From a virus: a stretch of 64,000 nucleotides of DNA. The stretch covers positions 1 to 64,000 of IMG/VR virus record IMGVR_UViG_3300008120_005720, one strand, 5' to 3'. The position numbers and the translations under genes were made by a program. The stretch's first letter is position 1. Every line of letters starts with the position of its first letter. The notes below the pieces were generated by a model, which did not search any database, was not told the origin of the DNA, and saw only the letters and a program-made list of their open reading frames with translations. This document shows positions 3,604 through 57,071 of the stretch, piece by piece.

Positions 3604-3609
3604 CAAGAT

Positions 3610-3686
3610 GCAGATGTATCCCCTCAAGCTTATATCTTGTAGAAAGGGTAGTTGGTCACATGTGAGTTCGAATCTCACCTTCTGTA
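3610..3686 (+). tRNA. tRNA-like gene, possibly Ile(TAT), atypical
   Basis: T-arm GTGAG-TTCGAAT-CTCAC and acceptor GCAGATG/CTTCTGT (one mismatch) are clear. TCAAG-CTTATAT-CTTGT gives a 7-base loop with nominal anticodon TAT, but it follows the acceptor almost directly, and a D-arm-like GGGTAGTTGGTCA comes after it. The order of arms is therefore odd: a degraded or rearranged tRNA, or a tRNA with a non-standard fold. Confidence 0.4.
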
Positions 3687-3696
3687 CAAAATATAT

Positions 3697-3770
3697 TCTC
3701 CTTTAGCTCAGTAGGTTAGAGCAACGCACTGTTAATGCGTGGGTCCTAGGTTCGAATCCTAGAGGGAGAG
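3697..3770 (+). tRNA. tRNA-Asn(GTT)
   Basis: Acceptor TCTCCTT/AGGGAGA, anticodon arm ACGCA-CTGTTAA-TGCGT, T-arm CTAGG-TTCGAAT-CCTAG, discriminator G. Confidence 0.9.
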
Positions 3771-3780
3771 CAACAAATAT

Positions 3781-3882
3781 TCACCCATAGCTCAGTGGTA
3801 GAGCAAACGGCTAGGTATGATAAGTAAGTTCATACAAGGAGTGTTAACCGTTAGGTCCTAGGTTCGAATCCTAGTGGGTGAG
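3781..3882 (+). tRNA. tRNA-Asn(GTT)-like gene with ~30-base insert in the anticodon loop
   Basis: All stems pair: acceptor TCACCCA/TGGGTGA, anticodon stem AACGG (3806-3810) with CCGTT (3848-3852), T-arm CTAGG/CCTAG. The loop is 37 bases instead of 7. Removing 3813-3842 leaves CTGTTAA, the Asn loop, with the junction between positions 33 and 34. The insert contains a hairpin GTATGA/TCATAC. It lacks the TTTCAGCAA core seen elsewhere in this window. Confidence 0.65.
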
Positions 3883-3888
3883 CAAAAT

Positions 3889-3958
3889 GCCGACACTTAG
3901 TGGAAAAGGACCGTCCCTCATATGGATGGTTAAGTGAGTTCGAACCTCACAGTCGGTA
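3889..3958 (+). tRNA. tRNA-Met-like(CAT)
   Basis: Anticodon arm CGTCC-CTCATAT-GGATG with anticodon CAT; T-arm GTGAG-TTCGAAC-CTCAC; acceptor GCCGACA/AGTCGGT with one mismatch. The D-arm is short and unusual, so function is uncertain. Confidence 0.55.
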
Positions 3959-3964
3959 CAACAT

Positions 3965-5258: not shown

Positions 5259-6155
5259 ATGAAAAAAAATGTTTTAAATATCGAAATAACTAGACCATCA
5301 CAAAAATTGTTTGTGATGCGTGGTATTCCTGGGGCTGGAAAATCAACAATGGCGAAATCACTAATGGGTGAAGGGATAATTCATTCAACAGATGATTTAA
5401 TTGAAGCTACTGGTGACTACAGAGGTTTCTTTGCTAAAATGATAGAGTCTGGAGACTTTAAAGATTTGTCTAGAATGCACTCTAAGAACTTATCTAACGC
5501 AATCAAATCTATGAAAGATGGTATTAGTCCAGTTGTAATAGATAACACGAATATCAAAGCCAATGAGGCTAAAGCATATGTTGTTGCAGCGTTGGAAATG
5601 GGATTTGATGATAACAACATACAAATACATGATGTTGGCACTCGTAACTTGACTGCTGAGCAATTAGCTGAGTCAAATACACATGGAGTTCCATTAGATA
5701 AAATAAAAATGATGATGGATTCACATAAATCTGTTGGGCCATTGACTGTTAAAAAAATAGTTGAATCTAAAGATATGTATAAACAATCAGATGTGTTATA
5801 TTCTTGTGTTTTGTTGGATGGACAATCCAAAGGTACGTTATTGGATAAACTTGGTATATGGATACCAAAAGATTGGACTGTGATAACACATCATATGACA
5901 ATAAATTTGGGTGAACTTAAAGATAAAACTGATTTAGGTAAAGAAGTTACATTGACAGTTGAAGCGTTAGGTCTTTCAGATAAAGCTATGGCTGTAAGAG
6001 TTAGCGGTTATCCATCAAAAAATGAAATTCCACATATAACTATTGCGATTAACCCAGATGGTGGTAAACCAGTTATGAGCAATCAAATAACAAAATGGCA
6101 AGACATTAAATCATTTATGATAAGTGGTATTGTCACTGAAATAAAAAAACAATGA
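5259..6155 (+). CDS. polynucleotide kinase fused to 2H phosphoesterase domain
   Basis: 298 residues. Residues ~20-30 hold a P-loop (GIPGAGKST) and the next ~140 match phage T4-type polynucleotide kinases, which phosphorylate 5'-OH ends. The C-terminal ~110 residues carry two HxT motifs (HHMTI near 210, PHITI near 257), the signature of 2H phosphoesterases that open 2',3'-cyclic phosphates. This pairing of activities is that of the kinase-CPDase part of fungal and plant tRNA ligases, and would prepare nuclease-cut tRNA ends for sealing; a true RNA ligase is encoded 1.3 kb downstream. Domains are seen; substrate and tRNA role are inferred. Confidence 0.8.
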   Translation: MKKNVLNIEITRPSQKLFVMRGIPGAGKSTMAKSLMGEGIIHSTDDLIEATGDYRGFFAKMIESGDFKDLSRMHSKNLSNAIKSMKDGISPVVIDNTNIKANEAKAYVVAALEMGFDDNNIQIHDVGTRNLTAEQLAESNTHGVPLDKIKMMMDSHKSVGPLTVKKIVESKDMYKQSDVLYSCVLLDGQSKGTLLDKLGIWIPKDWTVITHHMTINLGELKDKTDLGKEVTLTVEALGLSDKAMAVRVSGYPSKNEIPHITIAINPDGGKPVMSNQITKWQDIKSFMISGIVTEIKKQ

Positions 6156-7452: not shown

Positions 7453-8577
7453 ATGTTAGCTATACAAAAATATTTAAGAACACACGGTTTAGAAAAAACA
7501 ATCAAAGACTTTTCTTTAAAAACTAGAGAGTATGAACACAAAATACTCTTGAAGTATGACCAATTAGTGTCACCAACACTTATGTCATTGCCAGAGATGC
7601 AAGATTGTCGTGGAATCATCCTTGAAAAAGGTACTTGGAACGTAATGTCTTTGGCGTTTAGAAAATTCTTCAACTCTGAAGAAGGTAACGCTGCTAAAAT
7701 AGATTGGAATACTGCACAAGTACTTGAAAAATTGGATGGTACTATGATACAAGTGTATTATGATTGGCACGACATGACATGGTATGCTGGTACTACTGGT
7801 ACTGCAAACGGTGAAGGTGAAGTTAACAACAAAAATGGTACTAAATTTAACGAATTGTTTTGGGATACTGTTAACAACAAATACACATTCAATGCATGTT
7901 TGTTAAATTATGATTATATCTATGTGTTTGAGTTAACTACACCATATAACATAGTAGTAAAACCACATGGTGAATCATCAGCGACTTTGTTGGCTGTTAG
8001 AAACAGAAAAACACTTGTTGAGTTGTCTGGGAGAGACTTGGAAATGACTGCGGTATCATTGGATATACCATTGGTAAAATCTTTTGATTTAAACGCAAAA
8101 AATGTTGGTCACTTGTTGAAAACATTTGAAGGTATGCCATGGTCTGAAGAAGGTTATGTTGTACGTGATGGTAATGACAATCGTGTTAAAGTGAAAAATC
8201 CAGCATATGTTGCGGTACACCACTTGAAAGGTAAAACTGCTGAACACAACATATTAACTATTGTAAAAACTAACGAGATAGAAGAATTTGCTGCTACTTT
8301 CCCAGAAAGAACAGAAGAATTAAATCGTCTTAAAGAGTCTTACGATGCGTTGGTTGCAAAATTGAATGTTGTATGGGATGAATTAAAGTTGCGTAAACCA
8401 AAAAACGTAACAAAACCAGAACAAAAAAAGTTTGCTGCTGCTGTGTTTGAAGTTTGTGAGAAATATGATTTAAAAAACTTTACTGGGTTGTATTTTGGGT
8501 TGAAAGATTACAAAATAGCATCAGTTGAAGAATATATGTTTAACTATGACGATAAAACGTTATATAAAATGTTGTAA
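7453..8577 (+). CDS. T4 Rnl1-type RNA ligase
   Basis: 374 residues, the usual Rnl1 length. Nucleotidyltransferase motif I (EKLDGT, Lys near 93), motif III region (YVFELTTPYN), motif IV (SEEGYVVRD) and motif V (RVKVKNPAYV) are in the right order. Rnl1 seals 3'-OH to 5'-phosphate ends in anticodon loops; in T4 it works with polynucleotide kinase-phosphatase to reverse PrrC cleavage. Here a kinase-2H fusion is encoded 1.3 kb upstream. It has its own promoter. The C-terminal ~100 residues are helical, as in Rnl1. Confidence 0.9.
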   Translation: MLAIQKYLRTHGLEKTIKDFSLKTREYEHKILLKYDQLVSPTLMSLPEMQDCRGIILEKGTWNVMSLAFRKFFNSEEGNAAKIDWNTAQVLEKLDGTMIQVYYDWHDMTWYAGTTGTANGEGEVNNKNGTKFNELFWDTVNNKYTFNACLLNYDYIYVFELTTPYNIVVKPHGESSATLLAVRNRKTLVELSGRDLEMTAVSLDIPLVKSFDLNAKNVGHLLKTFEGMPWSEEGYVVRDGNDNRVKVKNPAYVAVHHLKGKTAEHNILTIVKTNEIEEFAATFPERTEELNRLKESYDALVAKLNVVWDELKLRKPKNVTKPEQKKFAAAVFEVCEKYDLKNFTGLYFGLKDYKIASVEEYMFNYDDKTLYKML

Positions 8578-13833: not shown

Positions 13834-14670
13834 ATGGAAAAGAAAATAAAAAATATTAGAGAAATTAAAACATCTGATAACGCTGGATTTGCATTTTTTG
13901 TGCATTCACATAAAGAAATTTTTGAAGCTATGATTAATGCTGTGTTGTTAAACAATGGTTTAGACGGTGATAAAAATACTGTAACAATCTACGGTGAATG
14001 GGCTGGTGGTAATATTCAAAAAGGTGTTGGTGTTTGCAATTTACCTAAATCTTTCTTTATCTTTGGTGTTAAAATCACACCACATACTGAAACTGAAGAA
14101 GAGTTAAAAGCTAATCCAGCATATTGGGTTGATTACTCTTATTTAAGAGCACCAGAGCAGAATATTTACAATATTGACGATTACCCTACATATTCAATCG
14201 ATATTGATTTTAACATGCCACAATTGGTACAAAATCAGTTGTCTGAGTTGACTATCAAAGTTGAAGAAGAATGTCCAGTAGCAAAAGCTTTTGGTTACTC
14301 TGGAATTGGTGAAGGTATTGTATGGACTGCTGATTTTAAAGGTGTTGTTCATCGTTTCAAGGTAAAGGGCGAACGCCACTCTAGTTCTAAAGTAAAAACA
14401 CTTGCAGCTGTTGATGTTGAGAAATTAAATTCTATTAAAGAATTTGTTGATTATGCAGTATCTGAAAGTCGTTTTAACCAAGCGTTAGAAAACATTTTCC
14501 CAAACAACGAACCTATTGATGTTAAGAAAATGGGTGACGTTATCAGATGGGTTGTTAATGACGTTATCAAAGAAGAAATGGATACAATGGTAGAGAACCA
14601 ATTGGAACCAAAAGAAATAAATAAATACATTTCATCTAAAGTAAGAGAAATGTTCTTTAAAATGGCTTAA
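13834..14670 (+). CDS. RNA ligase, C-terminal fragment (split gene)
   Basis: 278 residues. After a short head (MEKKIKNIREIKT) it continues the ligase with SDNAGFAFFVHSHKEIF, then motif III YGEWAGGNIQKGVGV, motif IIIa (KSFFIFGVKI), motif IV GEGIVWT and motif V HRFKVKGERHS, and a helical C-terminal domain of ~80 residues. It lacks motif I, which is in the fragment at 12293. The two pieces together equal a normal Rnl2-like ligase. The head could be a remnant of the insertion event. Confidence 0.8.
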   Translation: MEKKIKNIREIKTSDNAGFAFFVHSHKEIFEAMINAVLLNNGLDGDKNTVTIYGEWAGGNIQKGVGVCNLPKSFFIFGVKITPHTETEEELKANPAYWVDYSYLRAPEQNIYNIDDYPTYSIDIDFNMPQLVQNQLSELTIKVEEECPVAKAFGYSGIGEGIVWTADFKGVVHRFKVKGERHSSSKVKTLAAVDVEKLNSIKEFVDYAVSESRFNQALENIFPNNEPIDVKKMGDVIRWVVNDVIKEEMDTMVENQLEPKEINKYISSKVREMFFKMA

Positions 14671-15373: not shown

Positions 15374-16681
15374 ATGATAGTAAAAGAGAACGGTTTAAGA
15401 TACGCAAAACTGATACATGTATCAGTTGATAATGGTTTGACCAGCCAAAGTAATAAAGTTTATATTATGGAAGAATTATCAGATGGCCGTATCAAATGTG
15501 AATATGGTCGTGTTGGCAAGTCTTTAACAACTGAATATAAACCTAGTTCAAAATGGGATAGTGTGTTGAAACAAAAACTATCAAAAACAAAAGGTTATAC
15601 AGATGTAACTGATTTGTTGGCTGAACCAGTTGTGGATGAATCAAAACCAGTTGATAATAAAGTTGCAAATATCAAAGATGAGATTGTGCGTAAATTGGTT
15701 GATGAATTGATGTCATTTGCCAACAAATCAATCCAACGTAACTATAAGGTAACGCAAGAAGCTGTATCGGAACAACAAGTTACCGCTGCACAAGAGATTA
15801 TCACTAACATTAGTGGATTGATTGCTATTGGTGTAGATATCAAACATATCAATGATATGTTATTGAAACTTTATACAATTATCCCTAGAAGAATGGATAA
15901 CGTAAAAGACCATTTGTTTAGAGAGATTAGTAATGATGTTAGTTTGACTAACGCACAAAGATTGATTGATAACGAACAATCAGCGTTGGATACAATGGCT
16001 GGTCAAGTTGAGTTGATTAAACAACAAAGAGAAGCTGCTAAGAAAGCTGCTGAGGCTGAAGCTGAAGGTAAAAAAGAAGAAGTATCTGAAGTTACTATCT
16101 TAGACCAAATGGGATTATCTATTGAGGTTGAAAATGATACTGAAACGCTTGAACTTATCAAAAAATTGATGGGTCCAAATGTGAATCAAATGAAACGTGT
16201 GTTCAAGGTTGTTAACAACAAAACACAAAAAATATTTGATAAACACATGGATAAAGTTGAAGTTAAGAAACGTAGACTATACTGGCATGGGTCAAGAAAT
16301 GAGAACTGGTTTAACATTTTACAAACTGGGTTACTTATCAGACCATCTGGTGCGGTACATACTGGGTCAATGTTTGGTGATGGTATCTACTTTGCTGACA
16401 AAGCACAAAAATCTATTGGTTACACATCGTTAAGAGGTTCTTATTGGGCTCATGGTGGTGATAACAAAGCGTTTTTGGCATTGTTTGATGTGCATTTGGG
16501 TAAACAAAAAGAAATATTGCACCATGACTCAAGCTGTTATAAGTTATCTAAGAAAGTGTTAGATAATGAAGGATTTGATAGTGTGTTTGCAAAAGGTGGC
16601 GCTGACCTAAGAAATAACGAATATATAGTATATAACTCAGCACAATGTACTGTATCACATTTAATTGAAATAGGAAATTAA
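15374..16681 (+). CDS. poly(ADP-ribose) polymerase-like protein with WGR domain
   Basis: 435 residues. The first ~85 look like a WGR domain (NKVYIMEELSDGRIKCEYGRVGK), residues ~95-230 are helical like the PARP regulatory domain, and ~285-435 are a PARP catalytic domain: YWHGSR (His near 304), GIYFADKAQKSIGY (Tyr), and NNEY near the end (Glu near 415), an intact H-Y-E triad. Such enzymes move ADP-ribose from NAD+ to proteins or nucleic acid ends; WGR domains sense nucleic acid. A full PARP is rare in phages. The macro, NADAR and NAD-resupply genes elsewhere in the window fit an ADP-ribosylation programme. Triad seen; target unknown. Confidence 0.85.
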   Translation: MIVKENGLRYAKLIHVSVDNGLTSQSNKVYIMEELSDGRIKCEYGRVGKSLTTEYKPSSKWDSVLKQKLSKTKGYTDVTDLLAEPVVDESKPVDNKVANIKDEIVRKLVDELMSFANKSIQRNYKVTQEAVSEQQVTAAQEIITNISGLIAIGVDIKHINDMLLKLYTIIPRRMDNVKDHLFREISNDVSLTNAQRLIDNEQSALDTMAGQVELIKQQREAAKKAAEAEAEGKKEEVSEVTILDQMGLSIEVENDTETLELIKKLMGPNVNQMKRVFKVVNNKTQKIFDKHMDKVEVKKRRLYWHGSRNENWFNILQTGLLIRPSGAVHTGSMFGDGIYFADKAQKSIGYTSLRGSYWAHGGDNKAFLALFDVHLGKQKEILHHDSSCYKLSKKVLDNEGFDSVFAKGGADLRNNEYIVYNSAQCTVSHLIEIGN

Positions 16682-32610: not shown

Positions 32611-32736
32611 CGGGAGGTAGCCCAATTGGTAGAGGCAGCGGTATTGCAAAAAGTTTAATCTGTTTTAAAGATTAAGTTCAGCAAATAAAACGCTAATCGG
32701 AACCGCAGAGTGTTAGTTCGAGTCTAACCCTTCCGA
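32611..32736 (+). tRNA. tRNA-Arg(TCG) with a 52-base intron
   Basis: Exons: 32611-32644 and 32697-32736. Spliced, acceptor CGGGAGG/CCTTCCG, D-stem GCC/GGC, anticodon stem GCGGT/ACCGC, loop ATTCGGA (U33, purine 37, anticodon TCG) and T-arm GTTAG/CTAAC all pair. The intron (32645-32696) has an 8-bp stem TTTAATCT/AGATTAAG, then TTCAGCAA and exactly 12 bases to the 3' junction, the rule seen in the two permuted tRNAs. Reading the unspliced loop as ATTGCAA would give Ala(TGC), but the acceptor lacks G3:U70. The junction can slide one T. Confidence 0.75.
32645..32696 (+). other. mini-intron of the TTTCAGCAA class
   Basis: 52 bases: TGCAAAAAG, stem TTTAATCT, loop GTTTTAA, stem AGATTAAG, TTCAGCAA, then 12 bases. 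Far below the size of group I or II introns. Shares its 5' A-rich element, stem position, motif and 3' spacing with the flanks of the permuted tRNAs at 35574-35867. Confidence 0.7.
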
Positions 32737-32784: not shown

Positions 32785-33438
32785 ATGGCAAGGAAACAGA
32801 AAACGATTCATTACTTATATAAGACTACTTGTATTATAACAAATAGATATTATATAGGAATGCACAGTACAAATAATCTAGATGATGGTTATATGGGAAG
32901 TGGAAAAAGATTAAGATATAGCATACGTAAATATGGTGTTGAAAACCATAAAAAAGAGATATTAGAGTTCTTTGATACACGTGAGTTATTGGTTGAAGCT
33001 GAAATAAAAGCAATCAGTGAAGAAATGATTACAGATAACAACTGTATGAATTTAAAAGGCGGTGGTACTGGAGGTTTTATTAATGAAGAACATAGAAAAA
33101 AATTTTTATTGGTTGGATTACAAAATTTAAAAATTAATCAATCTAAACGAATTGAAAATATGAAAAAAACTATGTCTACAGATAAAATTAAAAATAAGAT
33201 TAGCGAATCTTTAATTAAATTTTATAATGAAAATGGTAATGTTGGGTTTTTTGCTGGTAAACAACATACTGAGGAATCTAAACAGAAAATAAGTGAAGCA
33301 TCTAAAGGTAAAGGTATTGGTGAATCAAACAGTCAATATGGTACTTGTTGGATAACCAAAGATGGTTCGAATAAAAAGATTAAAAAAGATGACCTTGATA
33401 TCTACCTAAATAAAGGATGGGTTAAAGGAAGAAAATAA
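32785..33438 (+). CDS. GIY-YIG homing endonuclease (Seg-like)
   Basis: 217 residues. HYLYKTTCIITNRYYIGMHST is the GIY-YIG core, with NLDDGYMGSGKRLRYSIRKYG following as in T4 Seg enzymes; the C-terminal SSKGKGIGESNSQYG region is a NUMOD-type DNA-binding tail. A paralogue at 45437 shares the start and nearly identical last ~35 residues. Both lie immediately behind tRNA genes, so tRNA arrays are the likely homing sites. Confidence 0.85.
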   Translation: MARKQKTIHYLYKTTCIITNRYYIGMHSTNNLDDGYMGSGKRLRYSIRKYGVENHKKEILEFFDTRELLVEAEIKAISEEMITDNNCMNLKGGGTGGFINEEHRKKFLLVGLQNLKINQSKRIENMKKTMSTDKIKNKISESLIKFYNENGNVGFFAGKQHTEESKQKISEASKGKGIGESNSQYGTCWITKDGSNKKIKKDDLDIYLNKGWVKGRK

Positions 33439-33520: not shown

Positions 33521-33627
33521 ATTGGTGCCACACGGAACAGAAACTATTCCCGTAGTTAAGCTGTTTGGGTTTTGGTGACGGGGCGAGAGTCCCCTTAATC
33601 AATCCACGTGTGGAAGGGACACCAATC
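33521..33627 (+). ncRNA. structured RNA with 5S rRNA-like elements
   Basis: ATTGGTG + CCACACG at the start pair with CGTGTGG + CACCAAT at the end (14 bp with a bulge); AACAG/CTGTT and GGGG/CCCC arms sit inside. TTCCCGTAGTTAAGC and GACGGGGCGAGAGTCCC resemble 5S rRNA segments (TTCCGAAC..GAAGTTAAGC; GGGAGAGT). Size (~107 bases) and closing helix also fit 5S, but much of the conserved sequence is absent. Confidence 0.35.
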
Positions 33628-33762
33628 GTTGCTATGGAGAAATTTGGTAGACTCACTCCACTGACCCGTCTGTAAAGACTAGACTACACCTTGTCAAGTG
33701 TGGGTGATGGGGTAAACGGGGGTTGTGACATAACACTGTAGGTTCGAATCCTACTGGCAACA
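33628..33762 (+). tRNA. tRNA-Tyr(GTA)-like gene with ~39-base insert in the anticodon loop
   Basis: Acceptor GTTGCTA/TGGCAAC, T-arm GTAGG/CCTAC and a Tyr-type long variable arm GTTGT/AACA are clear. The anticodon stem CCCGT/ACGGG encloses CTGTAAA plus ~39 extra bases; GTAAA occurs at both ends of the insert, so the junction could be anywhere in that repeat. The insert forms a CACCTTG-type hairpin but lacks TTTCAGCAA. The D-arm region also has ~10 extra bases. Confidence 0.6.
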
Positions 33763-33791
33763 CAAAATAACGTAAAATAAAAAAAAAACAA

Positions 33792-35521: not shown

Positions 35522-35573
35522 TTAGCAATAATATTCTACGTGGGGAACTGCGTAGAATGTTACAAGGGAAAGA

Positions 35574-35697
35574 AAGATTATTTCAGCAACAAAAACTGAA
35601 TAGGCTGTTAACCTCGTGGTCATGGGTTCGAATCCCATACTGTCCTTAATTGGGCGGTTAGCTCAGCGGATAGAGCACGTATCAAAAAAGTAATCTT
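35574..35697 (+). tRNA. circularly permuted tRNA-Asn(GTT) with flanking splice elements
   Basis: The 3' part (35602-35646) precedes the 5' part (35652-35679), separated by TAATT. Joined 5' to 3' they give a 73-base cloverleaf: acceptor GGGCGGT/ACTGTCC (7 of 7, two GU), D-stem GCTC/GAGC, A26, anticodon stem CGAGG/CCTCG, loop CTGTTAA, T-arm ATGGG-TTCGAAT-CCCAT. The junction falls between positions 28 and 29. Outside, AAGATTA (35574-35580) pairs with TAATCTT (35691-35697); TTTCAGCAA then 12 bases precede the 3' part, and TATCAAAAAAG follows the 5' part. No normal-order copy of either half is nearby. Confidence 0.8.
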
Positions 35698-35738
35698 GTT
35701 CCCCCAGTATTAAGTCCTCTGTCTTACAGAGTAATTAA

Positions 35739-35867
35739 AAGATTGTTTCAGCAAGTTAACTAAAAATTTGTATAGATAACAAAGGGACTGGGTTCGAATC
35801 CCAGCATGTCCTAAAACAGAGGTAGGGGCGTGTGGTGTAAGGGTAGCACAAAAAAAAGGGCAATCTT
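35739..35867 (+). tRNA. second circularly permuted tRNA (nominal anticodon AGA)
   Basis: 3' part 35767-35812, 13-base linker, 5' part 35826-35850. Joined: acceptor GGGCGTG/CATGTCC (7 of 7, GU at the same two positions as the first), D-stem GTGT/GCAC, A26, anticodon stem TTTGT/ACAAA, loop ATAGATA, T-arm CTGGG-TTCGAAT-CCCAG; 71 bases, junction between 26 and 27. AAGATTG (35739-35745) pairs with CAATCTT (35861-35867), a covarying match to the first gene's arms; TTTCAGCAA plus 12 bases again precedes the 3' part. The loop has U33 but U37, so decoding identity is uncertain. Confidence 0.75.
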
Positions 35868-35878
35868 GGTACTCATTT

Positions 35879-44787: not shown

Positions 44788-44849
44788 AAGATAGTTTCAG
44801 CAAATTACCAAACATCAAACTTTTATTTTGACACGTAACATACTATCTT
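44788..44849 (+). other. TTTCAGCAA-class element around an isolated anticodon-arm sequence
   Basis: AAGATAG (44788-44794) pairs with CTATCTT (44843-44849) and is followed by TTTCAGCAA; 12 bases later, where a 3' exon should start, is CAAA-CTTTTAT-TTTG, a perfect anticodon arm with anticodon TTT (Lys). No acceptor, D or T arm is present. Same layout as the permuted tRNAs but with only this mini-exon. Either a deletion remnant or an element that releases an anticodon stem-loop RNA. Confidence 0.55.
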
Positions 44850-44856
44850 GTTATTT

Positions 44857-45436: not shown

Positions 45437-46108
45437 ATGGCGAGGAAAGAAAAAAAGTATCATTTTATATATAAAACTACTAATATATTAAGTGGTAGAT
45501 ATTATATAGGAATGCATAGTACCGATAGTCTAGATGATGGATATTTAGGTAGTGGGAATAGATTGAGGTTAGCTATTAGAAAACATGGCAAATCAAATTT
45601 CAAGCGAGAAATTTTAGAATTTTGTGAAACTAGAGCCGATTTGAAAAAAAGAGAAAAAGAAATCGTTACTTTAGATGAAATAGCAAAAGATGAGTGTATG
45701 AATTTAGTTGTTGGTGGTGAAGGAGGGTTTATATCCGAAGACGGTGTAAAGTTAGGTAGGGTTAAATGTGATGAAAAACTAAAAGAAAAGTATGGTGAAA
45801 AATTTAAAATTGTAATTATTAAAAATTACCATTCAAATTTAACTGAAGAAGAAAAGTTGATTAGAGGTAAGAATATTAGTAATGGTCAAAAACATTCTGG
45901 TTTTGATTTTGGTTCACCATTTAGAGGTAAAAATCATTCTGACCAAACTAAAAAGAAAATGTCTGAATCATCTAAAGGTAAAGGTATTGGTGAATCAAAC
46001 AGTCAATATGGTACATGTTGGATAACTAAGGATGGTTCTAATAAGAAGATTAAGAAAGAAGAGTTAGACACATACCTAAACGAAGGTTGGGTTAAAGGAA
46101 GAAAATAA
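45437..46108 (+). CDS. GIY-YIG homing endonuclease (Seg-like), paralogue of 32785
   Basis: 223 residues. FIYKTTNILSGRYYIGMHST, then SLDDGYLGSGNRLRLAIRKHG; C-terminal SSKGKGIGESNSQYG region nearly identical to the protein at 32785, while the middle differs. Located 61 bases after tRNA-Gly, with a similar upstream leader (TTTTTTGTACTTT). Two family members in two tRNA arrays point to homing at tRNA genes. Confidence 0.85.
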   Translation: MARKEKKYHFIYKTTNILSGRYYIGMHSTDSLDDGYLGSGNRLRLAIRKHGKSNFKREILEFCETRADLKKREKEIVTLDEIAKDECMNLVVGGEGGFISEDGVKLGRVKCDEKLKEKYGEKFKIVIIKNYHSNLTEEEKLIRGKNISNGQKHSGFDFGSPFRGKNHSDQTKKKMSESSKGKGIGESNSQYGTCWITKDGSNKKIKKEELDTYLNEGWVKGRK

Positions 46109-46205: not shown

Positions 46206-46332
46206 GGGGGTGTTGAAATGTTAGATAAATCACATTCTGCCTTTTAGATTAAAGAATGTTTGCAGCAAAATCAAAATTATTCACGCAAACTGTAAATTTG
46301 ATAAAACGTTGGTGCAATTCCAGCCGCCCCCA
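46206..46332 (+). tRNA. tRNA-Tyr(GTA)-like gene with ~51-base intron
   Basis: Acceptor GGGGGTG/CGCCCCC, T-arm GTTGG-TGCAATT-CCAGC (unusual T-loop), and CAAA-CTGTAAA-TTTG as anticodon arm. Between D-arm and anticodon arm lie ACATTCT/AGAATGT (46232-46238, 46253-46259), TTGCAGCAA (46260-46268) and 12 bases to 46281, the 3' junction predicted by the rule. TCAC occurs at both candidate junctions, so the exact intron (about 46230-46280) is ambiguous. D-loop and T-loop are non-standard; the gene may be decaying. Confidence 0.55.
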
Positions 46333-55442: not shown

Positions 55443-57071
55443 ATGCAATCAGAAACTAGAAGAATGAAGAGAGATTTAGCGTTAAAAAATGTGATTAAAT
55501 CTAGATTAGCAGAAGCAATCAAAAACAAAGATTGGTCTGAAATTGAAACATTGGAAGGTCTTATTTCAAAAGTATTGGATAAACCTAACAACCTAGTACT
55601 TATGGGTGATGCTTATAAGTATTCACACCACAAATTCTACGAAGACAATACAACAACTGTTTATTCATATATGGAATCACGTGGTGGTAAATTTAGCGAA
55701 ACCGTATGGTTTGGTTTAGAAATGTTCATCAAAGAATATTTGGAAGGTGTTGCAATCACACAAGAAGAATTAGAAGAAGCGTATGAGTACTTAGGTACTA
55801 AACATGGTGTGTTTGGTCGTGATGATGTGTTTGACAAATCTAAATTCCAATACATTATTGATGTTCATGGTGGTAAATTACCAGTACGTATCAAAGCAGT
55901 AAAAGAAGGTACAGTAGTAGGTGTTAAAAACGTTCTTATGACTATTGAGAACACTGACCCTAATTGTTATTGGTTAACTAACTTCTTAGAAACTATCATG
56001 ATGCAATTATGGTATCCAATCACAGTTGCTACGTTATCACGTGAGGTCAAAAAAATCGTTATTGAATATTTTGACAAAACTGTTGCGTTACCAACTGATA
56101 TAATGAATACAGTTATTGAGTTCGTATTGAATGATTTCGGTTTCAGAGGTGTATCTTCAGTACAATCAGCTGGTTATGGTGGCGCTGCACACTTGATTAA
56201 CTTTATGGGTTCTGATACAACAGCTGCATCAAAACGTATTTGTGATTACTACAATACAGATACAATCTTTGGATTATCTGTACCAGCAACTGAACACTCT
56301 ATCATGACTATGAAAGGTGAAGAAGGTGAGGTTGAAATGATGAGAAGAACGTTGGAGAAATACCCTACTGGAATTGTAGCGTGTGTATCTGACTCTTATC
56401 ACATCTTACGTGCATGTTCTGAGAAATGGGGAACTGAGTTACGTGATTTGATTCTATCTCGTCCATCAACTCCAGGTAACCAATTAGTTATCCGTCCAGA
56501 TTCTGGTCACGTTGTCAACACGTTGAAAGCAGTATTTGAAATATTGTTTGATAAATTTGGTTACACAGTAAACGACAAAGGGTTCAAAGTATTACCACCA
56601 CAAGTTCGTGTAATCCAAGGTGATGGTGTAAACATTAATTCAATTCGTGAGATTTACGAAGAGTTATACAGATTAGGTATTTCTGCTGAGAACATTGTGT
56701 TTGGTATGGGTGGTAAATTGTTACAAGCTGATATCAACCGTGATACTCAAAACTTTGCAACAAAAGCATGTTTTGCAGTTGTAAATGGTGAACAACGTGA
56801 TTTAGTTAAATCACCAACAGAGGTTGATGAAAATGGTGACTTAAAACCATCATTCAAAAAATCTAAACAAGGTCGTTTGAAATTGGTTAAAGATTACAAT
56901 GATTACACTTATCATACAGTAACTTCATTGGAAGATGGGTATGAAAGTTCACGTGATGAATTAATAACTATTTTTGAAGATGGTAAACTATTGGTTGAAA
57001 CGAAATTTGAAGATATTCGTAGTAGGGCAAGAATAATGAGTCTAAAACCATCTTTAGAATATTTAAGATAA
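55443..57071 (+). CDS. nicotinamide phosphoribosyltransferase
   Basis: 542 residues (human NAMPT is ~490; the first ~45 here are an extra helical part). LMGDAYKYSHHKFYEDNTT, VYSYMESRGG, GFRGVSS, SAGYGGAAHL, PATEHSIM, RPDSGH and IQGDGVN are NAMPT landmarks, including the catalytic His near GH. It makes NMN from nicotinamide and PRPP. With the NMNAT-Nudix gene upstream it forms the two-step NAD+ resupply pathway known in phages as NARP2; PRPP synthetase follows in the window. Confidence 0.93.
   Translation: MQSETRRMKRDLALKNVIKSRLAEAIKNKDWSEIETLEGLISKVLDKPNNLVLMGDAYKYSHHKFYEDNTTTVYSYMESRGGKFSETVWFGLEMFIKEYLEGVAITQEELEEAYEYLGTKHGVFGRDDVFDKSKFQYIIDVHGGKLPVRIKAVKEGTVVGVKNVLMTIENTDPNCYWLTNFLETIMMQLWYPITVATLSREVKKIVIEYFDKTVALPTDIMNTVIEFVLNDFGFRGVSSVQSAGYGGAAHLINFMGSDTTAASKRICDYYNTDTIFGLSVPATEHSIMTMKGEEGEVEMMRRTLEKYPTGIVACVSDSYHILRACSEKWGTELRDLILSRPSTPGNQLVIRPDSGHVVNTLKAVFEILFDKFGYTVNDKGFKVLPPQVRVIQGDGVNINSIREIYEELYRLGISAENIVFGMGGKLLQADINRDTQNFATKACFAVVNGEQRDLVKSPTEVDENGDLKPSFKKSKQGRLKLVKDYNDYTYHTVTSLEDGYESSRDELITIFEDGKLLVETKFEDIRSRARIMSLKPSLEYLR

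Follow-up and report, generated by a model that had tools for sequence, protein, structure and literature searches.

A family of phage RNAs in which a CAGCAA core encloses permuted tRNA-like domains or anticodon arms

We describe a large family of structured phage RNAs in which a two-strand core containing CAGCAA encloses a permuted tRNA, a set of D, anticodon and T arms or, most commonly, an anticodon stem-loop alone. The starting point is a 64-kb window (the whole stretch of 64,000 nucleotides that was analysed, part of an 86,085-base virus record), the two permuted tRNA-like genes of which, at 35574–35868, had been read as exons placed around a splice core. Most members of the family look like decoys instead of working or spliced tRNAs, because the anticodon changes freely. 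On sequence grounds, we give slightly less than an even chance to the reading that most elements are non-translating mimics of tRNAs or anticodon arms that act as decoys for anticodon nucleases.

Results

A conserved two-strand core

The core consists of a 7-bp helix (P), in which ARGWUNN pairs with NNAWCYU and a G follows, together with NNN-CAGCAA and an A-rich linker on one strand and AAANN on the other. The evidence for the family is sequence, taken from contigs that are partly redundant and often fragments, and the exon ends are those that give the best fold. In viral contigs, TTTCAGCAA-N(22–52)-GGTTCGANTCC, in which the GGTTCGANTCC side is the T loop 22–52 nt after TTTCAGCAA, matches at least 120 stretches, as compared with nine for the reversed motif, indicating that the pattern is not due to chance. 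When only the arms are searched for (ARGNNNN, its complement and G, the motif not being given), CAGCAA accounts for 188 of the 415 6-mers that lie three bases past the arm; the second most frequent 6-mer, CAGCAT, has 10. Some enrichment of CAGCAA is expected, because the loci searched had been fetched with TTTCAGCAA, but on these sequences the fetching does not explain the NNN variants and the extra elements per locus.

The distance of 3 nt between ARG(N4) and CAGCAA is found in 196/196 closed elements, and three control motifs give one match in total in the same distance test. An enlarged set comprises 606 distinct closed elements, 552 of them with CAGCAA. Position by position, the 5′ arm reads A-R-G-W-U-N-N, the opposite strand ends with A-A-A-N-N ahead of the 3′ arm and a G always follows the 3′ arm; arm pairing and the G are not independent evidence, because the search itself demanded both, and the arm consensus of class C (defined below) is biased by the two arm sequences used in the scans. 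The NNN is variable and shows no covariation with the strand opposite. The invariance of TTT ahead of CAGCAA, part of the original prediction, is thereby refuted, and pairing of TTT within the motif is ruled out as well. The sequence upstream of the elements is U-rich and often lies directly past the CCA of a tRNA.

Classes of enclosed sequence

In class A, the core encloses a permuted tRNA with an acceptor stem sealed by a short hairpin loop. In class B, the acceptor is absent and the D, anticodon and T arms are present. Class C, the commonest (305 distinct elements), contains the anticodon stem-loop alone. In addition, there are a few cis forms, in which a tRNA gene that is otherwise ordinary is interrupted by the P hairpin with CAGCAA, at positions 25–29 or 33/34. 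The enclosed pieces nearly always include an anticodon stem-loop ~10 nt past CAGCAA.

The anticodon stem of class C mostly starts 5–12 nt past CAGCAA, and the commonest loops are CTTTTAA, CTTGTAA, CTTCTAA, and CTGTAAA. The place of U33 is occupied by U in 154 of the 191 (81%) 7-nt loops; 114 of the 305 elements have no hairpin of at least 5 bp with a 7-nt loop, some hairpins of the class falling short of a clean anticodon arm. Two class C scans with fixed arms give at least 120 stretches each, as compared with none for the motif control. A class C model built from 27 sequences, in which the helix pairing is partly selected for, has both-side changes in 12 of 12 pairs and finds members in 30/30 element-bearing records tested. 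Some class C elements are identical except around the anticodon.

Several class B elements with GGTTGG...CCAACC and Thr-like or Ser-like loops (L042, L072, L073, L118, and L120) end a few bases upstream of a start codon. Such elements might act in cis on the gene that follows.

Elements in the window

The arms predicted to be complementary in the two permuted genes are indeed so (AAGATTA with TAATCTT in element 1, AAGATTG with CAATCTT in element 2; Table 1), and TTTCAGCAA directly follows the leader arm in both. Joined in silico, the halves of element 1 form an Asn(GUU) tRNA-like fold (ARAGORN score 122.2) and those of element 2 a Ser-like(AGA) tRNA fold (110.0), with the 3′ half starting 12 nt past the motif in both genes, as had been claimed. 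The 12-nt spacing fails as a rule of the family: the best joins of other elements lie at ~4–15 nt, and the class C stem starts over the range given above. The 3′ end of the element 1 linker can pair, by eye, with TATCA at 35680, forming a short helix (H2).

Table 1 Elements and RNA-repair genes in the window
Feature	Position	Strand	Description
Element 1 (class A), helix P 5′ arm	35574–35580	+	AAGATTA
Element 1, core	35581–35589	+	TTT and CAGCAA
Element 1, linker	35590–35601	+	A-rich, 12 nt
Element 1, tRNA-like 3′ half	35602–35646	+	Anticodon arm (CTGTTAA loop, GUU), T arm, acceptor 3′ strand, T
Element 1, acceptor-sealing loop	35647–35651	+	5 nt, without CCA; acceptor hairpin present in MFE fold
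Element 1, tRNA-like 5′ half	35652–35679	+	Acceptor 5′ strand, D arm, up to position 28
Element 1, 3′ side	35680–35698	+	A-rich strand, P 3′ arm TAATCTT 35691–35697, conserved G 35698
Element 2, leader	35716–35722	+	CCTCTGT, complementary to acceptor-loop ACAGAGG 35816–35822; pseudoknot with P
Element 2 (class A), 5′ arm and core	35739–35754	+	AAGATTG 35739–35745; TTT and CAGCAA 35746–35754, CAGCAA at 35749–35754
Element 2, permuted tRNA-like domain	35767–35849	+	Anticodon arm (ATAGATA loop), T arm, sealed acceptor stem, D arm
Element 2, 3′ side	35850–35868	+	A-rich strand, 3′ arm CAATCTT 35861–35867, conserved G
Element 3 (class C)	44788–44850	+	Between tRNA-Gln and tRNA-Tyr; AAGATAG, TTT, CAGCAA, linker, hairpin, CTATCTT, G
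Element 4 (cis)	32611–32736	+	tRNA-Arg(UCG), interrupted by the core hairpin between positions 33 and 34
Element 4, P and CAGCAA	32655–32661/32669–32675; 32679–32684	+	
Element 5 (cis)	46206–46332	+	Degenerate Tyr(GUA)-like tRNA, odd D arm, short variable loop
Element 5, P and CAGCAA	46232–46238/46253–46259; 46263–46268	+	TTG ahead of CAGCAA
RNA-repair protein	5259–6155	+	P-loop kinase (AAA_33) and fungal tRNA-ligase phosphodiesterase-like domain (weak, barely over cut-off)
T4 RNA ligase 1 family ligase	7453–8577	+	
RNA ligase 2-like protein	13834–14670	+	

The tRNA-Arg gene (element 4) has the same core in the form of a hairpin (TTAATCT/AGATTAA, GTT, CAGCAA), in agreement with the original prediction. 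The Tyr-like gene (element 5) has ACATTCT/AGAATGT, TTG, CAGCAA. In tRNA genes of ordinary order, the core is a hairpin, and around a permuted tRNA the same core takes the form of paired arms; as had been recognized, opening the stem-loop interconverts the two. Compared with its orthologs (L014:2813 and L079:432), the window tRNA-Arg has a compensatory change in H2 (ATTGC/GCTAAT versus AATGC/GCTATT).

Element 3, overlooked in the first reading of the window, encloses an anticodon hairpin alone (TCAAA-CTTTTAT-TTTGA, 44815–44831). It scores 68 bits with the class C model, a score that is not independent, because the 27 sequences from which the model was built include this one.

Other sequences in the window are tRNA-like as well. 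A tRNA-Asn(GUU)-like gene at 3781–3882, immediately preceded by an ordinary tRNA-Asn at 3697, has ~30 nt inserted between positions 33/34 without a CAGCAA core. At 33627–33765, Leu-like tRNA ends surround a long insertion that is not a CAGCAA element, and at 3605–3690 and 3888–3960 there are degenerate, tRNA-like stretches, unreported by ARAGORN, in which the T arm is good. The two cis elements (32611 and 46206) are flanked by homing-endonuclease-like genes (phrog_314; 32785–33438 and 45437–46108), which could matter for mobility. The phage also has genes for a PARP-domain protein and a nicotinamide phosphoribosyltransferase (15374–16681 and 55443–57071), which have NAD-related functions.

Class A genes resemble tRNAs but seem unfit for translation

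Joined with their own partner halves, 87 of 180 class A elements score at least 112. The same score is reached by 0/400 random windows, 6/180 elements with swapped 5′ ends and 30/400 tandem ordinary tRNAs, indicating that class A folds like a tRNA only with its own partner half.

Judged from the genes, the product appears unfit for translation with respect to 3′ CCA, identity, and anticodon stability. On contigs that encode CCA, 3 of 51 class A genes have it, as compared with 687 of the 769 ordinary tRNAs on all class A contigs. The first base is T in 21 of the 51; the ordinary tRNAs of class A contigs mostly have G1. In class A, the Tyr anticodons (13/13), the Ser anticodons and most of the Leu ones occur with short variable loops, and on several of the contigs concerned the same amino acid is also served by an ordinary tRNA. 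Where bodies are near-identical (0–12% divergence), the anticodon differs in 14 of 19 class A pairs; among ordinary tRNAs it does so in 46 of 1,784. The pairs are not independent, and few independent anticodon changes underlie the 14 of 19. In addition, a leader complementary to the acceptor loop (at least 5 bp) is present in 46% of class A versus 8% of shuffled sequences. Class A genes seem to behave like non-translating mimics. Class C is not matured to a tRNA, because there is no tRNA present to make.

Distribution and companion genes

Isolates with elements are Vibrio phage KVP40 and relatives, the Aeromonas phages PX29, Ah1, Aeh1, and phiAS5, and Synechococcus phage BUCT-ZZ01. The KVP40 "pseudo-tRNA-3" is a tRNA-Asn with a 41-nt cis element; it is 97–100% conserved in ~30 Vibrio phage records, the cis element being nearly unchanged across Schizotequatroviruses. 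Annotators of KVP40-like phages give pseudo-tRNAs only, and some elements are filed under that label. In the KVP40 genome (AY283928), a class C element lies at 176661–176726, a class A element near 175980–176105 and the cis tRNA-Asn at 179301–179416. In KVP40 (L138), the "pseudo-tRNAs" 5 and 4 (922–1034 and 1045–1168) have inserts with CTGCA core variants inside the anticodon arm.

Among the 120 matches listed in bacterial genomes, real elements are present on one contig and the others look like chance, and on these matches bacterial genomes are rejected as carriers. The contig, from a Marinifilum MAG (L187, JAOARS010000164.1), is 8 kb long, tRNA-dense and has several elements; it probably derives from a phage and was binned with the bacterium. 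The T4 stable RNAs C and D are ruled out as members, there being no core and no model match in T4 69500–73500.

A T4-type RNA ligase 1 is encoded in 15 of 30 element-bearing records, this phage included. RtcB is found in just one of the 30, which rules it out as a common partner.

Discussion

How decoys of this kind would work can be outlined. Transcription would take place within tRNA arrays, just past the CCA of the preceding tRNA, and the two-strand CAGCAA core would clamp a whole permuted tRNA, the D, anticodon, and T arms, or the anticodon arm. The resulting RNAs would be stable, non-aminoacylatable, and mostly unspliced. The exchangeable anticodon would be the bait for host proteins that recognize anticodon loops, most likely anti-phage anticodon nucleases, and the CAGCAA core would be a putative binding site or fold common to all elements. 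The few cis elements in functional-looking tRNA genes may additionally be removed. Phage tRNAs are known participants in the conflict with anticodon nucleases (PMC11455837). More tentatively, and short of probable, the elements could make up a phage immune-evasion system, widespread among phages, in which modular decoys (exchangeable anticodon stem-loops or sealed mimics of whole tRNAs), displayed on the core and diversified codon by codon, absorb anticodon nucleases, and some cores excise themselves, restoring tRNAs or giving circular decoys.

Several observations count against decoys: cis inserts at 33/34 (the window tRNA-Arg and its orthologs) destroy the anticodon loop unless removed, the cis tRNAs look functional, half of the element-bearing records encode the RNA ligase 1 that a splicing route would need, and few independent changes lie behind the anticodon differences of class A. 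The main rival, a strong one that we consider less likely than decoys, is that the core is an RNA excision and ligation element, a small intron in cis and a means of circularizing the cargo in the closed form, with the phage kinase/phosphodiesterase and the T4-type RNA ligase 1 healing and sealing the ends. We retain it because the cis tRNAs look functional, the tRNA-Arg needs its insert removed and heal-and-seal enzymes would allow removal. When joined, the cis tRNAs score ~102–124 and mostly have G1 or C1, some with CCA (KVP40 and L114). The compensatory H2 change in the tRNA-Arg, the homing-endonuclease-like genes beside the two cis elements and the window genes for RNA ligase 1, the kinase/phosphodiesterase-like protein, and the RNA ligase 2-like protein also fit excision. 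However, class C would yield a tiny circle only, the linkers at the would-be splice sites vary in length and sequence, class A is unlike a tRNA precursor, and about half of the element-bearing records, many being fragments, have no match to RNA ligase 1 and RtcB is nearly absent. Splicing is plausible for the cis genes (the window tRNA-Arg, KVP40 tRNA-Asn, and others). As a general rule, a splice core does not stand: the commonest class encloses the anticodon stem-loop alone, class A is mimic-like and, in class C, motif and stem occur without tRNA exons at the predicted spacing, an outcome that the original prediction had itself set as refuting. Read in this way, the core covers a minority of cases only. 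Mimicry and excision could both be true, of different members.

It is unlikely that the elements are tethers like Y RNAs, with a protein bound at the P/CAGCAA end and the tRNA-like end docked on enzymes that bind tRNA (for RNA repair or modification, or PNPase-like), which would be recruited and not deceived. The arm order of class A is that of YrlA (RF02553), with the ends paired in a helix, then T arm, sealed acceptor hairpin, and D arm, a likeness confined to class A. YrlA is the best non-tRNA Rfam match and, in Salmonella, is encoded in an RNA repair operon (PMC9879122). But the matches (32.9, 36.8, and 39.3 bits) are far below the gathering score of 69, and a search of 30 element-bearing phage records for Ro60/Rsr (TROVE) genes finds none, which speaks against a phage-encoded Ro60 as a partner. 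The phage RNAs also differ from YrlA in the CAGCAA/AAANN core and in an anticodon arm that is present and exchangeable, YrlA having no such arm (by its consensus and general knowledge); class C keeps this arm as its sole tRNA domain, without T, acceptor, and D domains.

The elements might also be tRNA-like relics in decay, or spacers for the processing of tRNA arrays, without any specific role. Such a reading would fit the location directly after CCA ends and the annotation of some elements as pseudo-tRNAs, but is very improbable, because of the invariant ARG-7-CAGCAA geometry, the covarying arms, the functional-looking anticodon loops, and the conservation of the KVP40 cis element.

The exchangeable anticodon is a specific, testable link to tRNA-cleaving defences. 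The family is large, is present in many phages and bears on why phages carry so many tRNA-like genes. It includes elements of the long-used KVP40 and Aeh1, the sequences of which have been public for two decades, that were so far unannotated or filed as pseudo-tRNAs. No Rfam family matches these elements, and searches of the open-licence PMC literature, which leaves preprints and most subscription papers outside, find no description of permuted tRNAs, intron-like tRNAs, decoys, or tRNA-like small RNAs of this kind in phages. If, instead, the cis and permuted forms undergo processing, they would rank with the smallest known intron-like elements and, as far as the open-licence literature shows, the first phage permuted tRNA genes reported.

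Circularly permuted tRNA genes are known from red and green algae and archaea, where they mature to working tRNAs via a splicing endonuclease. Like these genes, the phage elements have the 3′ half first, a short linker and a junction by the anticodon or D arm. Unlike them, they are mostly without CCA, have a hypervariable anticodon and a CAGCAA core, and most members of the family are not tRNAs at all.

Like group I, group II, and BHB introns, the cis elements lie within tRNA genes, close to the anticodon arm, and have a short H2 beside the junction. They differ from group I and II introns, and apparently also from BHB introns, in the core of ~40–55 nt with strict ARG-7-CAGCAA geometry. The exclusion of group I and II introns made in the original prediction holds and they are ruled out, a scan of the whole window at Rfam gathering scores and a permissive scan of 35540–35875 giving no match to either.

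A further parallel is with the phage tRNAs that evade anticodon nucleases. Ordinary phage tRNAs of this kind, such as T5 tRNA-Lys against PARIS, are translating tRNAs that evade cleavage (PMC11455837). Both are phage-encoded with varying anticodon arms, and tRNA-cleaving defences are the likely selective force; whereas the ordinary tRNAs translate, the phage CAGCAA elements look unable to.
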